Assembly: GCF_000513895.2 (NCBI RefSeq)
Contig: NZ_CP165782.1
Span: 62,001-126,000 of the forward strand
Origin: Ensifer sp. WSM1721
GTDB taxonomy: Bacteria; Pseudomonadota; Alphaproteobacteria; Rhizobiales; Rhizobiaceae
DNA length: 64,000 nt
Reading direction: 5' to 3'
Within the stretch, counting starts at the first letter, position 1; every line of letters begins with the position of its first letter. Position numbers and translations under genes: made by a program. Below are positions 7,957 through 61,185 of this stretch, piece by piece. The notes below the pieces were generated by a model. That model was not told where the DNA came from, did not search any database, and was given only the letters and a program-made list of their open reading frames with translations.

Positions 7957-8053
7957 TCCCTAGATGAGGGACAACCCGCGATGTTTGCAGCATAACATTG
8001 TCTTTCGTCTGGAATAGTCCGCGGGCGCTGACTACACTATTCGGAATTTCGAA
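7957..8053. promoter_or_regulatory. Candidate LysR-controlled divergent promoter region
   Basis: The 136-base gap between the efflux operon and the LysR gene contains two dyads: TCCCT-agatg-AGGGA (7957-7971), close to the operon start, and TTCG-GAATTT-CGAA (8040-8053), close to the LysR start. The layout is typical for LysR autoregulation plus control of the divergent operon. Neither dyad is a textbook T-N11-A box, so assignment is tentative. Confidence 0.4.
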
Positions 8054-54906: not shown

Positions 54907-55713
54907 TCACGCGACCGCCGCATCGCGCCTGGCGATTTCGTAGTCTTCCGTGTGCACGAGCACGCCGTCCTCGGTCACCAGCGCGATGCCGTAGGCTGCC
55001 GGTTCGTCGACGGAAAGGGAGGCGTCCGGTATGTCGAAGGGCATCGGCTGCTGGTGTACCGGGCTCTTGAAGATCGAGAAGGGAATGCCGTGGCTGGAGC
55101 CGCTGATGGTGCGGTGAACATGCCCGGCGAAAATATGGCGAACATTGCCGTGCCGCTTCACGAGCGCGTAGAAGTCGTCCCCGTTGATGAGGCGGATCAT
55201 GTCGATGCCGGCAAAGCCGCTAGCGTGCGGCGGATGATGCATGAAGATCAGCGCCGGTCGGTCGCCGGCCTCGTCGAGCTGCCGGTCGAGCCAAGCGAGG
55301 CGCCTTTCGCAAAGACGGCCGGCATGGCTCATCGGATAGTCGTAGGGCGGCGCAAAAAGCGTGTCGAGCAGGATCGCGCGGCAATCGGCGAAATCGATCG
55401 CCTGCTGGACAAAGCCGTTGTCGTCCGTCGCCGCCTCGGCGAAGACATCCAGAAAAACCTCGCGGCGGTCGTGGTTGCCGATCATGAGCGCCGCCGGCGG
55501 GACCAGCTCGCCGAGAAGCGGTTTCAACCGCTCGTAGGACGGACGGTCCGCCCCATGCGCGAGGTCGCCGGCGAAAATCACCCGGTCCGCGTCCGCATGA
55601 TAACGGTTGACATGGGCGATGCCGTTGGCGAGTCGCCGATAAGGGTCGAGCCCGATGATCGCCGCACCTTCGGGAACCATGTGCAGGTCGGTGAAAATGA
55701 TGAACTTCGTCAT
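54907..55713 (-). CDS. spdA: Class III cyclic-nucleotide phosphodiesterase (SpdA-like)
   Basis: 268-residue calcineurin-type metallophosphoesterase. Metal motifs: FTDLHMV (D, H), FAGDLAHG, IGNHDRR, FMHHPPHASG, FAGHVHR. In S. meliloti the gene in this neighbourhood is SpdA, which acts on cyclic AMP, with biochemical preference for 2',3'-cAMP. The name here rests on sequence type plus location beside cyclase and Clr genes. Start at 55713 (MTKFIIFTDLH). Confidence 0.85.
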   Translation of the reverse strand: MTKFIIFTDLHMVPEGAAIIGLDPYRRLANGIAHVNRYHADADRVIFAGDLAHGADRPSYERLKPLLGELVPPAALMIGNHDRREVFLDVFAEAATDDNGFVQQAIDFADCRAILLDTLFAPPYDYPMSHAGRLCERRLAWLDRQLDEAGDRPALIFMHHPPHASGFAGIDMIRLINGDDFYALVKRHGNVRHIFAGHVHRTISGSSHGIPFSIFKSPVHQQPMPFDIPDASLSVDEPAAYGIALVTEDGVLVHTEDYEIARRDAAVA

Positions 55714-55908: not shown

Positions 55909-55994
55909 TAGCGGTTCCCTTGCGGCGGGATCGGGATCGCGATATGGATCGCCGCGAACGCTGATATATCAGGTGCCATAGCCGGAGACATGTG

Positions 55995-57029
55995 ATGAGA
56001 TGGAAGCGCACGATCCAGTTGCTAGATGTTCATTGCGAGGGCGAGATCGGCAAGGTGGCGATCGGCGGCGTGCCGAAGATCCCGGGCAATTCCATTGCCG
56101 AGCAGTTGAACCACATCAATACAGTGGATGACAGCCTGCGTCGCTTCCTGTGCCTGGAGCCGCGCTCGGGCTCGATCGGCTCCGTCAATCTGCTGGTGCC
56201 GCCGAAACGGCCGGAGGCGGATGTGGGCTTCATCATCCTGCAGGCCGACCAGGCGCATGCGATGTCCGGGTCCAATTCGATCTGCGTGACGACGGCGCTG
56301 CTGGAATCCGGCATTGTCGAAATGAAGGAGCCGGAAACCGTGGTGATGCTCGACACGGCGGCGGGCCTCGTGAAGGCAACGGCCACATGCCGCGACGGGC
56401 GCTGCGAACGCGTGAAGCTTACCATGGTCCCGTCCTTCGTGCAGGAATTGGATGTGGAGGTGGACACGCCCGATTGGGGCCGCATCAAACTCGATCTCTG
56501 CTTCGGCGGCATCTTTTATGCGCTTGTCGACGTCCGCCAGGTCGGCACGATGATTGAGAAGGCGAATGCGCGCCGGATCGTCGAGATGGGGATGGTGCTG
56601 AAGGACATCGTCAACCGCACGATCCCGGTGGTGCACCCGGAAATCCCGGAGATCAGGGGCGTGGCCTACGTCATGTTCCGCGACACGGAGGCGGACGGAA
56701 CCGTTCGGACCTGCACGACCATGTGGCCGGGCCGCGTCGATCGCTCGCCCTGCGGTACCGGCAGTTCGGCCAATCTCGCGACGTTGCATGCGCGCGGCAA
56801 GGTCAAGCCGGGAGACGTCTTGAAATCCCGGTCCATCATCGGCTCGGAATTCGAGGTCGGACTCGAAGGCGTGACGACGGTCGCGGGCCGGCAGGCGATC
56901 ATCCCCACCATTTCGGGTCGCGGCTGGACCTTCGGTCTGCACCAGGTGGCCCTTGATCCGTTCGATCCGCTCGCCGATGGCTTCGCACTGACCGATACCT
57001 GGGGGCCGCAGGCGGGCGAGATCCGTTGA
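55995..57029 (+). CDS. Proline racemase-family enzyme, probable trans-3-hydroxy-L-proline dehydratase
   Basis: 344 residues with the two-lobed proline racemase fold. The first catalytic position, Cys in racemases and epimerases, reads AMSGSNSICVTTALLE, so it is Ser. The second, DRSPCGTGSSANLA, keeps its Cys. A Ser/Cys or Thr/Cys pair is the pattern reported for trans-3-hydroxy-L-proline dehydratases rather than racemases. ATG at 55995 follows GGAGA; a GTG three bases upstream is possible. It sits between spdA and the Sel1-like gene, about 1.6 kb from putA. Confidence 0.85.
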   Translation: MRWKRTIQLLDVHCEGEIGKVAIGGVPKIPGNSIAEQLNHINTVDDSLRRFLCLEPRSGSIGSVNLLVPPKRPEADVGFIILQADQAHAMSGSNSICVTTALLESGIVEMKEPETVVMLDTAAGLVKATATCRDGRCERVKLTMVPSFVQELDVEVDTPDWGRIKLDLCFGGIFYALVDVRQVGTMIEKANARRIVEMGMVLKDIVNRTIPVVHPEIPEIRGVAYVMFRDTEADGTVRTCTTMWPGRVDRSPCGTGSSANLATLHARGKVKPGDVLKSRSIIGSEFEVGLEGVTTVAGRQAIIPTISGRGWTFGLHQVALDPFDPLADGFALTDTWGPQAGEIR

Positions 57030-57071: not shown

Positions 57072-57662
57072 TCATCGCGGCAGCCGGTCCGTGTCTGCCC
57101 GCGCCAGCCGGTCCGTGTCTGCCCGCGCCAGCCATTGGGAGGCAACTTCGTCGTCGACATTCGTCGCCAGGCCGTCGCGAGGAGTCGCGGCGAGATAGCG
57201 GGCGGCGAGGATATTTCCTTGAGCCGCCGCCCGCTGGTAGAGGCTGACGGCCGCTTCCGTTTCTCCACGCTCGGCAAGTACCTCGCCGTAGCCCACCATC
57301 GCGAGCGCATGGCCGTTCTTGGCGGCTTCGGCGAGAACGCGTTGCGACTGCAGCTTCTGCCCGGCCCTGTCGAGAACGCGTGCGAGCTGGAATTGGGTCC
57401 GGGCGCCGCCATTCTGGTTATAAGCCTCGCGGCACGCCGAAAGCGCGATGCCGATGCGGATGTCCTGTGTGGCAACGGCGGGGAACGCCCTGTTTCGCGT
57501 AAGGTCGAACTCGCTGCCGGCTTCCCGGTCACACTGTTCGGCCGCCGTGAGATCGGCGGCGCGCGCCGAAGGAAATGCGGTCGTAGCGAAGGCGGCAAGC
57601 GCGACGACCGCAAGCGGAACGCCCTTGGCGATCCTAATGTCCAAACCGGTCCGGTTCTTCAT
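57072..57662 (-). CDS. Exported Sel1-like repeat protein (SMc02178 position)
   Basis: 196 residues with a signal peptide ending SARAAD (about residue 35). One cysteine pair, then Sel1/TPR-like helical repeats (QFQLARVLDRAGQK..., AMVGYGEVLAERGETEAAVSLYQRAAAQGNILAARYLA). The C-terminus is a tandem ARADTDRL repeat. AGGAG lies before the ATG. Clr box 50 bases upstream. In S. meliloti the Clr/cAMP-dependent gene smc02178, which limits secondary root infection, lies at this place beside cyaD1 and clr; equivalence is by location, box and export signal. Confidence 0.8.
   Translation of the reverse strand: MKNRTGLDIRIAKGVPLAVVALAAFATTAFPSARAADLTAAEQCDREAGSEFDLTRNRAFPAVATQDIRIGIALSACREAYNQNGGARTQFQLARVLDRAGQKLQSQRVLAEAAKNGHALAMVGYGEVLAERGETEAAVSLYQRAAAQGNILAARYLAATPRDGLATNVDDEVASQWLARADTDRLARADTDRLPR
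57081..57133. repeat. 24-bp in-frame tandem repeat
   Basis: CAGCCGGTCCGTGTCTGCCC plus GCGC, repeated twice (57081-57104, 57105-57128) with a start of a third. It adds an eight-residue unit to the C-terminus of the Sel1-like protein. Confidence 0.85.
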
Positions 57663-57711
57663 GATGATCTCCTAATGTTGTCCAATTCTAAAACCCCCGT
57701 GATGCGGCGCA

Positions 57712-57727
57712 TGTTCCTCGGGAAACA
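57712..57727. promoter_or_regulatory. Clr (cAMP-CRP-like) binding box
   Basis: TGTTCCTCGGGAAACA fits TGTT-N8-AACA and is one base off the known S. meliloti Clr consensus form TGTTCCGCGGGAAACA. It lies 50 bases ahead of the Sel1-like start and between it and the divergent FecR gene, so it could control both. The clr gene itself is 2.8 kb away. Confidence 0.85.
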
Positions 57728-57860
57728 GCGGCGATGAGGGCGAAGCGGCGAGGTTGGGGCGAGGCGATTGCATCTTGCATCACCAATGCGTGCGTTTATC
57801 CTCGGATGGCGCCGGAAGCGCGAACAGGAGGCGCTGCCATCAAGCAGCGGGCACAGGTCG

Positions 57861-58478
57861 ATGCGGCAACCAGATGTGAAAAGAAGGCTCTTCCTTTGCG
57901 GCCTGATGCTTGCTGCCATGGGTGGCGGAACGGCTGTGACTGCGGCCAGCCCGGTCGTAGGCAAGGCGCGGAATATCCGTGGCAATGTTCGCCGCCGGCA
58001 GGGGGGCGACGAGGGGCGCCTCGCCGCCGGCGACGCGGTTCTCGACAACGACTATGTCTCCACGAGCACCAACAGCTTTGCCGATCTCGCGCTCAGCGAG
58101 ACGCGCATCCTGCTCGGTCCACAGACGGAACTCCTCATCGATAGCTTCCTCGCCGCTGAGGGCGGCACGCTCGAACTCGGACTGGGCCGCATGGTGTTCG
58201 ACCGGCCCGACAATTTGCCGAAGATGGATGTGGCGGTGCGAACGGCCTTCGGCATGATCGGGGTTCGCGGGACGAAATTCTTCTGTGGTCCGAGCCGGGC
58301 GGCCTTTGCCGTCTTCGTGGAGCGTGGCTCCGTCTCCGTCCGAGGCGGCGGCGTGACGCGGACGGTCTCGGCCGGCCAGGGCGTCGATTTCACGAGCCCG
58401 GGTGCTCCACCGAGCGAGCCGACGAACTGGGGCCAGGCGCGAATCCGGCAAGCCTATGCGAGCGTTGGGCTGAGGTGA
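57861..58478 (+). CDS. Exported FecR-domain protein
   Basis: 205 residues from the ATG at 57861. Twin-Arg-like/Sec signal (VKRRLFLCGLMLAAMGGGTAVTAASP), then a FecR-type beta domain: RNIRGNVRR, LAAGDAVLDNDYVSTSTNSFADL, LGPQTELLID, VRTAFGMIGVRGTKFFC and VERGSVSVRGGG. FecR domains are often encoded beside CHASE2 cyclases and may act as periplasmic signal or assembly partners. Upstream in-frame starts (57768, 57786) have no signal-peptide logic. Convergent with the cyclase gene. Confidence 0.85.
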   Translation: MRQPDVKRRLFLCGLMLAAMGGGTAVTAASPVVGKARNIRGNVRRRQGGDEGRLAAGDAVLDNDYVSTSTNSFADLALSETRILLGPQTELLIDSFLAAEGGTLELGLGRMVFDRPDNLPKMDVAVRTAFGMIGVRGTKFFCGPSRAAFAVFVERGSVSVRGGGVTRTVSAGQGVDFTSPGAPPSEPTNWGQARIRQAYASVGLR

Positions 58479-58606: not shown

Positions 58607-60475
58607 TCATCCGTCGCCATCCACCACGGTGAAAAGCTCCAGCGACCCAAAGCCGCGAATGTCGTGTGGCCCGAGCGTACGCAGCGCTGCGCGCGACTGG
58701 GTGGCGGCGGCCGGGCCGATGCAGATGGCCGTGCCAAGGAACTTGTTCGCTTCCTGCAGGCGCGCGGCGAGGTTTACGGCATCGCCATGGGCCGTATAGT
58801 CGAGTTTCCCGCCGGCCCCGACCTCTCCAAGTACAGCCGGACCGGTTTCGATGCCGATCCGGGTTCTGCCGAAGCCATGTTCGGCAAATTGCGGGCGCTT
58901 GCGCATTTCCTCTGTCAGATTGCGGATCGCCACGGCGCATTTGATCGCTTTGTCGACATGGTCGGCGAGATCTTCGGGCGCGTTGAAGAGGGCATGGACG
59001 GCGTCGCCAACGACCTTGTCGACCATGCCGCCATGTCGGGAGACGAGGGCGTTCACCTCGGCGAAATAGATGTCGAGCAAGGACACGAGCTCGCGCGGCC
59101 CGAGCTTCTGCGACAGCGTAGAAAAGCCTTCGATATCGGTGAAGAGCGCCGTCACGGGGCGTTCCTCGCCGGCCATGCGGCCGCGATACGGTTCGTCGAT
59201 GTAGCGCGCCACCACGGACTGCGGCAGATACTGCGCGAATTTCCGCCGGGCAATCGCTTCGGCGCGACGCACCCGGGCGAGTTGGAGCGCGCTCGTCACT
59301 ACGAGGACAGCCACCAGGGCAACCGAGATGCTAACCGCGTCGACGAGCCAGCCGGTGGCGGCGTAGATCGCGCCGGCAACGGCGACGACCGCAAGCACGG
59401 CCGCCGAGCCGAGAGCGAGCGTCGTCAGGGGACGCAGTTTCGTTGCGCCATAGGCGGCGACCGTCCCCGCGGCGAAGCTGAAAAGCGCTTCGAGCAGAGG
59501 CAGATCGCCGTGCCGATAGGGCACGAAACCCGTCGTGATTGCATTGGCGATGTCGGCATGGATCTGCACCGAGGCTTCGAGCGGCATGGAGGCGGTCGGG
59601 CGTAGGCCGCCGAGGCTCGGCATGCTGCTGCCGAGAAAGACGAGCTTGCCCGCGAGCCGGCTTCCGTTGGCCTTATCAGCCAGGACGTCGGCTGCCGAAA
59701 GCGTTCGTTCGGCGATTGCCTCTTCCGAGCTTGCGACGAACCGCAAGTTGCCGCTTTCGTCGAGCGGGATGATAGCGTGGTCGAGCCTCAGCCAAGCGGG
59801 TTCGCCGCCGAGTACCGGCGTGCTGCTTGCCGCGGCAAGCCGGCCCGCTTCGATACCGAGCGCCGGATAGGCATCATTGCCGAGGATGGCGAAAGCCTGC
59901 ACGCGCCGGACGCGTGCATCGTCGTCGCCGACGAGGAAGGCGGCGGCCGCGGCTTTCGATTGCTCCATGAAGGCGGGGCAGGAGGTTTCCGCGCCTTGGA
60001 TGAACCATTGCGCGGGCACCGCAAGCCTGCGCCGCAAGGCGAGCGGAGGAACGGGGCGCGGGTGCTCCAGGGCGCGATCGGCAGCCAGGAAGCCCAGGAC
60101 GACGGGCGCTTCGGCGAGTGCTGTGGCGAGCCCGCTGTTTGCCGGCAAGGCCGGATCGCAGTCAGCGCTGAAGACGAAATCGACCGCGATTGCCTTTGCC
60201 CCGGCCGCGGCGAGCCGCACTATCAGCTCGGCAGTCGCGCCCCTGTCCCAGATGCCGGATTTCGCTTCATAGGCCCGGCGGTCGACGTCGACGACGACGA
60301 TCTCCGGCGACCGTGGCGAGGGGACCCATTGCGTCAGATTGTCGAAGAAGAGCTCGCGCTGCGTGCGGAACACCGGTTCGGCATAAAGATACAGCATGAG
60401 CGCCGCCGCCAGGCTCGCGACGATCCCGCCGGCAAGCGGGGTGATGCGATAATGCGGCCACTGCCTGAGGCTCAA
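58607..60475 (-). CDS. cyaD1: CHASE2-domain adenylate cyclase (CyaD1-like)
   Basis: 622 residues. N-terminal helix (about 12-32), extracytoplasmic CHASE2 sensor (about 40-320, with EIVVVDVDRRAYE and KLVFLGSSMPSLGGLRPTASMP), three membrane helices (about 340-420), and a class III cyclase domain (about 440-615). Key catalytic elements: FTDIEGFSTLS (metal Asp), VVGDAVHALFNAP (second metal Asp), and DYTAHGDAVNLAARLQ, the transition-state/adenine-selecting block. The start lies five bases past the clr stop, so clr and the cyclase form one operon. In S. meliloti CyaD1 answers a plant signal in nodules. Confidence 0.92.
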   Translation of the reverse strand: MSLRQWPHYRITPLAGGIVASLAAALMLYLYAEPVFRTQRELFFDNLTQWVPSPRSPEIVVVDVDRRAYEAKSGIWDRGATAELIVRLAAAGAKAIAVDFVFSADCDPALPANSGLATALAEAPVVLGFLAADRALEHPRPVPPLALRRRLAVPAQWFIQGAETSCPAFMEQSKAAAAAFLVGDDDARVRRVQAFAILGNDAYPALGIEAGRLAAASSTPVLGGEPAWLRLDHAIIPLDESGNLRFVASSEEAIAERTLSAADVLADKANGSRLAGKLVFLGSSMPSLGGLRPTASMPLEASVQIHADIANAITTGFVPYRHGDLPLLEALFSFAAGTVAAYGATKLRPLTTLALGSAAVLAVVAVAGAIYAATGWLVDAVSISVALVAVLVVTSALQLARVRRAEAIARRKFAQYLPQSVVARYIDEPYRGRMAGEERPVTALFTDIEGFSTLSQKLGPRELVSLLDIYFAEVNALVSRHGGMVDKVVGDAVHALFNAPEDLADHVDKAIKCAVAIRNLTEEMRKRPQFAEHGFGRTRIGIETGPAVLGEVGAGGKLDYTAHGDAVNLAARLQEANKFLGTAICIGPAAATQSRAALRTLGPHDIRGFGSLELFTVVDGDG

Positions 60476-60480
60476 TCGGC

Positions 60481-61185
60481 CTAATCCTCCTCGGGATCCG
60501 CTATGCTCAGCAGACGGCCCACATTACACGAGATGATCCCGTCCGTCCGCTTGATGGCGCAGTTTTCCTCCAGCCAGAGGATGGCGCGGTTCACCTTGGG
60601 CCGACTGGCGCCGAGAATGGAGGCGATATCGGTCTGGCTGAGCGTCAGGCGGAGATTGGCGCTGGCCGGCAGCTCGCTGCCGTGGATTTGCCGCAGCGTC
60701 GCCAGGAAGAAGCGTGCCACACGGGCATTGAGGTCGTAAAGCGCGATGGTCTCCAGCCGATCCGTCGTGTCGCGCAATTGCGCGCAGAGGAACCGAATCA
60801 CCGCTTCGGCGATCTTCGGCTTCTGCGTGATGAGAGCGAGGAAATCCTTCTTGCCGATCACGTAGCCCTCGGCGGCCGTGACCGCGGTCGCGTCCGCCGA
60901 GCGAGGCTGGTCATCCAGCACCGCCATTTCGCCGAACAGCGCGCCCGCCTCATGCTGGCGCAGCAGCAGCTCGCGGCCTTGCGGCGTGAACAGCGACAGC
61001 TTTATGCGGCCGGAAACGAGGACGATCATGTAGTTGCCCTCGTCGCCGCGCTGAAAGATCACCGTTCCGGCGGGCCACTTCCGATAGGTGGCGATCTCGG
61101 CGAGCTCGCAAAGCGTTTCCCGATCGAAGTCTTCGAAAATAGGGAAGGACCGCCAAAAGGCGGGACTCCGGTTCACTTCGGCCAT
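60481..61185 (-). CDS. clr: Crp-family cAMP-responsive regulator Clr
   Basis: 234 residues. The cyclic-nucleotide pocket contains GALFGEMAVLDDQPRSADATA, with the Arg-Ser pair that contacts the phosphate in CRP. A long C-helix and winged helix-turn-helix follow (LTLSQTDIASILGASRPKVNRAILWLEE). Placed immediately upstream of the adenylate cyclase gene, as Clr is in S. meliloti. Activates TGTT-N8-AACA targets, one of which is at 57712. Confidence 0.92.
   Translation of the reverse strand: MAEVNRSPAFWRSFPIFEDFDRETLCELAEIATYRKWPAGTVIFQRGDEGNYMIVLVSGRIKLSLFTPQGRELLLRQHEAGALFGEMAVLDDQPRSADATAVTAAEGYVIGKKDFLALITQKPKIAEAVIRFLCAQLRDTTDRLETIALYDLNARVARFFLATLRQIHGSELPASANLRLTLSQTDIASILGASRPKVNRAILWLEENCAIKRTDGIISCNVGRLLSIADPEED

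Follow-up and report, generated by a model that had tools for sequence, protein, structure and literature searches.

The Clr box TGTTCCTCGGGAAACA (57712..57727, no strand assigned, centre 57719.5) is likely to be the class II operator of a Sel1/smc02178-type gene, and the divergent fecR-type gene would have a separate promoter that Clr raises loosely. The box lies in a stretch of 64,000 nucleotides from Ensifer sp. WSM1721, hereinafter designated the window, and is kept at all 59 loci compared. The locus is the ortholog of the S. meliloti clr-cyaD1-smc02177/smc02178-spdA locus, and both genes flanking the box are published Clr targets, so that most of what is described here is known biology in another species. 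New here are a promoter geometry fixed on one side only, a class II mechanism that is likely, and the occurrence of the module in genomes with no detectable nodA. In the literature searched, which leaves out most subscription papers, no statement on conservation of the smc02178 promoter beyond S. meliloti was found.

The box is flanked by the gene of a Sel1/TPR-type exported protein, the smc02178 ortholog (57072..57662, minus strand, 196 aa), and by a fecR-type gene, the smc02177 ortholog (57861..58478, plus strand), whose ATG start was set by homology and lies downstream of the TTG that opens the longest ORF. Beyond fecR lie the orthologs of cyaD1 (58607..60475, minus strand), which encodes CHASE2 and class III cyclase domains, and of clr (60481..61185, minus strand), whose product aligns over its full length with the Clr crystal structure, PDB entry 7pza. 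On the other side, the Sel1-type gene is followed by a Pro_racemase-family gene (55992-57029; Pfam) and by the spdA ortholog, a metallophosphoesterase gene (54907..55713, minus strand; Pfam, tblastn). The sequence-only reading had claimed a cyclase, a regulator, a phosphodiesterase and an output gene within about 6 kb. Consistent with this, the Crp-type regulator, the CHASE2 cyclase, the FecR protein and the metallophosphoesterase pass Pfam cut-offs within 6.3 kb. The order and orientation of the clr, cyaD1, smc02177 (FecR), smc02178 and spdA orthologs are as in S. meliloti Ak57 (Pfam, tblastn). The Ak57 sequence, L019 (CP090106.1, 3.72 Mb), carries the clr-cyaD1 locus and is titled plasmid pSymB; this replicon label may be wrong, since the papers put clr-cyaD1 on the chromosome.

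The closest named locus is that of Ensifer aridi LMR001, with a Sel1-type protein 99% identical to that of the window. A short tandem duplication at the 3' end of the Sel1 gene (57072-57140) makes the window protein 8 aa longer (196 aa versus 188 aa in LMR001). The same reading had called the protein Sel1-like. For the window protein itself, the only match is to TPR_16 and stays below threshold, but Sel1 is matched with E <= 0.01 by 10 of the 17 family members aligned. The S. meliloti/fredii/aridi group has Sel1-type proteins of 150-205 aa, and most of those from the other Ensifer and Rhizobiaceae have 286-301 aa; the distant L071-L074 proteins are also short (about 196-203 aa), and that of L076 has 205 aa. 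SMc02178, for which PMC5498481 had reported no structural clue, now looks like a short form of a Sel1/TPR family. The racemase-type gene between the Sel1 gene and spdA distinguishes the window from S. meliloti; it is present at this place in 36 of the 58 relative loci and absent from the S. meliloti and S. medicae loci. Its origin as an insertion in the lineage of the window was rejected, as the 36 loci include distant ones. A putA gene lies near the racemase-type gene.

The 16-mer at 57712-57727 matches TGTT-N8-AACA, as had been claimed, and is a single base away from TGTTCCGCGGGAAACA, the site given for smc02178 (PMC4222275). It also fits the Clr core GTNNCNNNNGNNAC and matches the consensus HGTYHCNNNNGRWACA on both strands. 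TGTTN8AACA occurs twice in the window versus 0.16 times expected from shuffles; in the other occurrence, TGTTTGCAGCATAACA at 7982-7997, the G that belongs to the Clr core is missing. A genome scan for the same pattern, which the sequence-only reading had proposed, showed no enrichment, with 29 sites versus 34 for the reversed control in 6.33 Mb. Genome-wide counts of the core GTNNCNNNNGNNAC (1490 versus 2262 per strand), of HGTYHCNNNNGRWACA (21+23 versus 21+27) and of a further 16-base pattern (1+4 versus 2+1) likewise do not rise clear of their reversed controls, and for this reason no Clr regulon is claimed. Eleven other genome sites were inspected beside the Clr box. Among the sites of this genome is a second exact copy of TGTTCCTCGGGAAACA, located between predicted ORFs (L009 1501-1516, corresponding to G000:C1:862960-862975).

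The lack of enrichment makes the bare pattern weak evidence for a Clr site, and it could be read to mean that the box is a chance palindrome or the site of another Crp/Fnr regulator, as could the second copy of TGTTCCTCGGGAAACA, which has no TAnnnT at offset 21 on either side. The strong evidence for a putative Clr site is conservation. Specifically, a genome scan with the Sel1-type family alignment gave 58 loci, of which L077, with 27% identity and no neighbour genes, proved a false match and was removed; the comparison thus comprises L020-L076, S. meliloti Ak57 and the window, 59 loci together. A site fitting GTNNCNNNNGNNAC is present in 59/59 loci, and TGTTN8AACA is fitted in 50/59. In the 320 bp that precede the Sel1-type gene, the best site scores 10/10 in 50 loci and 9/10 in the other 9, compared with scores of 9 or 10 in 6 of 313 control searches upstream of spdA, doxX, clr, putA, cyaD1 and the racemase gene. 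Boxes were chosen by best score, which in itself accounts for part of the conservation of the box columns; no such choice was made for the -10 and flanking columns. Where fecR is present, as in 58 loci, the intergenic region contains exactly one Clr core site. A clr ortholog lies beside the box in 56 of the 58 relative loci, the exceptions (L033 and L036) being near contig ends. At L071, which was left out of the tree for too little aligned sequence, fecR and cyaD1 are absent, and clr, the box and the -10 are kept.

According to PMC10127613, Clr contacts bases through Q184, S194, R195, K197 and N199, with a further contact by L152. The first five residues are invariant in 55/55 aligned Clr proteins, namely those of the 58 relative loci with a Clr alignment of about 200 residues or more. 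In S. meliloti, deletion of the box abolished Clr activation, and Clr bound the box only with 3',5'-cAMP, giving a smear and no clean shift (PMC4222275); Clr-DNA structures, ChIP-seq and promoter tests have also been published (PMC10127613), and the smc02178 promoter serves as a cAMP reporter (PMC13001267). The gel shift, ChIP-seq and clr/cya-mutant reporters suggested by the sequence-only reading are therefore already in print for S. meliloti (PMC5498481, PMC4222275, PMC10127613). In view of the proven S. meliloti ortholog (PMC4222275), the invariant contact residues and the conservation of the site in 59/59 loci, TGTTCCTCGGGAAACA very probably works as a Clr site. A chance palindrome or a site of another regulator is hardly credible, given the conserved place, core and -10, the clr ortholog beside the box and the Clr contacts just described.

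The comparison of the 59 loci defines a fixed spacing on the Sel1 side of the box. TAnnnT occurs exactly 21 bases from the box in 53/59 loci, whereas the remaining 109 offsets average 0.14. Of the six remaining loci, L029, L047 and L055 have the motif one base off, and L028, L033 and L069 keep TA and lack the final T. After thinning for similarity, 49 loci remain; among them, the fixed letters T, A and T of TAnnnT occur in 47, 48 and 43, and the intervening spacer columns carry 0.02-0.48 bits. With start codons chosen among candidates, the distance from box centre to Sel1-type start codon is about 54-64 bp in 58/59 loci and 134.5 bp in L034. In L034, extra DNA shifts the start codon, and the -10 still holds its distance to the box. 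In the window, the pattern of the 53 loci predicts TAGAAT as the -10 of the Sel1-type gene (57685..57690, minus strand, 21 bases from the box). With the last T of TAnnnT taken as -7, transcription is predicted to start at 57678 (minus strand), 41.5 bp from box centre. The predicted leader of 16 nt includes AGGAG (57669..57673, minus strand), read as the ribosome-binding site; over the 59 loci, the predicted leader is most often 18 nt long and has a purine-rich ribosome-binding site.

A box centred at -41.5 suggests a class II position. Specifically, Clr bound to cAMP (or cGMP) would activate the Sel1/smc02178-type gene from a box that overlaps the -35 region, with the TAnnnT -10 held 21 bp away and followed by a short leader that carries a ribosome-binding site. 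This predicted arrangement, deduced from the comparison, resembles E. coli class II CRP/CAP-dependent promoters, in which the site is likewise at -41.5 and the -10 at a fixed distance; in the window, the start is a predicted one. The systems differ in that the Clr half-site is TGTT, not TGTGA (PMC4222275), and in that Clr belongs to the cluster G regulators and is activated by both cAMP and cGMP (PMC10127613).

The class II assignment differs from the class I assignment printed for S. meliloti, according to which Clr binds at -61.5. The latter is based on a single RNA-seq start of strain 2011, 61.5 bp from box centre (PMC4222275). In three S. meliloti loci (Rm1021/2011 left out) and in the window, the base 61.5 bp from box centre falls within the start codon or directly behind it, so that the combination of a site at -61.5 and a start upstream of the coding sequence was not found in these four loci. 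The distance from box centre to smc02178 start codon is 58.5-59.5 bp in the same three S. meliloti loci, versus about 68 bp in PMC4222275. Moreover, TAnnnT at an offset that could serve a -61.5 start occurs in no more than a stray locus, and the conserved -10 points to 41.5 bp. We thus regard a class I promoter for the Sel1-type gene as improbable. Most activated Clr promoters have their site at -42 to -76 (PMC10127613), and the class II position of the smc02178 promoter may already be on record in that paper.

Other than the promoter class and the racemase-type gene, the window closely resembles the S. meliloti smc02177-smc02178 region: the box has the same place and neighbours, shares 15 of 16 bases, with the one difference in the non-conserved centre, and is accompanied by a regulator with invariant contacts. 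Binding and activation by Clr are in print for S. meliloti (PMC4222275, PMC10127613), and the window is known from its sequence alone. From sequence, synteny, conservation and spacing, which were observed directly, we infer where transcription starts, that Clr acts by a class II mechanism, and that binding and activation are the same in this species.

No such fixed geometry exists on the fecR side, where no offset has TAnnnT in more than 6/59 loci. Instead, the fecR gene of the window is preceded by a predicted sigma-70-like promoter of its own, with TTGCAT as the -35 (57775..57780, plus strand) and TATCCT as the -10 (57797..57802, plus strand) at a 16-bp spacer; the start is predicted at about 57809, 89.5 bp from box centre. 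TTGnnn-N16-TAT(C/T)CT is found upstream of fecR in 32/59 loci, which are 32 of the 33 Ensifer/Sinorhizobium loci (membership set by title or tree), L076 being the exception. The start predicted in these 32 loci lies 80.5 to 119.5 bp from box centre, a range of 39 bp. Over all loci, box-to-fecR distances are 65.5-268.5 bp, which outside Ensifer/Sinorhizobium are estimates with rough FecR start codons.

The sequence-only reading had proposed that the single box could switch both exported proteins together. A true bidirectional switch, which co-activates both genes to similar effect, agrees with the single core site between the genes in 58/58 loci with fecR, and ex planta smc02177 does respond to Clr and cyclases (PMC5498481). 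A shared operator would be expected to keep its geometry to both promoters, but the geometry is fixed on the Sel1 side only, and the fecR promoter is at a distance that varies over the 39 bp given above. Furthermore, Clr activates smc02177 ex planta more weakly than smc02178, and in nodules smc02177 is essentially clr-independent (PMC5498481); in E. coli, unlike in S. meliloti, Clr does not activate the SMc02177 promoter (PMC10127613). Equal switching of both genes is therefore unlikely, and the proposal has partial support only. The fixed -10 on one side ties the box to the Sel1-type gene, and its effect on fecR is likely secondary. In the class II reading that we prefer, fecR would start about 80-120 bp beyond the box from its separate promoter; Clr can raise it, as found by others ex planta in S. 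meliloti, through a geometry that is not conserved, and fecR could be expressed without Clr.

The same reading had held that the whole signalling loop can be read from the sequence, a claim that is not supported as worded. The substrates of S. meliloti SpdA are 2',3'-cyclic nucleotides; activity on 3',5'-cAMP is not detectable, and clr is not needed for spdA expression (PMC4222275). On this published biochemistry, spdA was rejected as the gene that closes a cAMP loop. In addition, the cyclase adjoining fecR is one of 31 cyclase-domain matches in the genome. With S. meliloti SpdA inactive on 3',5'-cAMP, the locus comprises a cyclase, a receptor and outputs, with no demonstrated off switch.

The distribution of the module was compared with that of NodA (PF02474), searched in the window genome and in the 57 genomes from which L020-L076 come. 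NodA was found in 22 of these 58 genomes (19/40 and 3/18) and not in 36, although genes can go missing from drafts (L033 is a MAG of 4.0 Mb) and a genome without detectable nodA is not thereby proven non-nodulating. The Clr box is present in all 36. The window genome has one NodA match, on contig C3, and the window is on C1.

The S. meliloti orthologs of the flanking genes are both required to limit secondary root infection (PMC5498481), and for their promoter region the comparison of 59 loci yields a concrete model in conflict with the printed one. On balance, we favour the view that this infection-control promoter of S. meliloti has been misclassed, being class II and dedicated to the smc02178-type gene, with fecR loosely coupled. 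In the same view, Clr-CyaD1-Sel1 would be an old envelope response of the Rhizobiaceae, also working in non-nodulators and later used by S. meliloti for infection control. With the module present in many genomes without detectable nodA, its first function may need to be sought outside nodulation.
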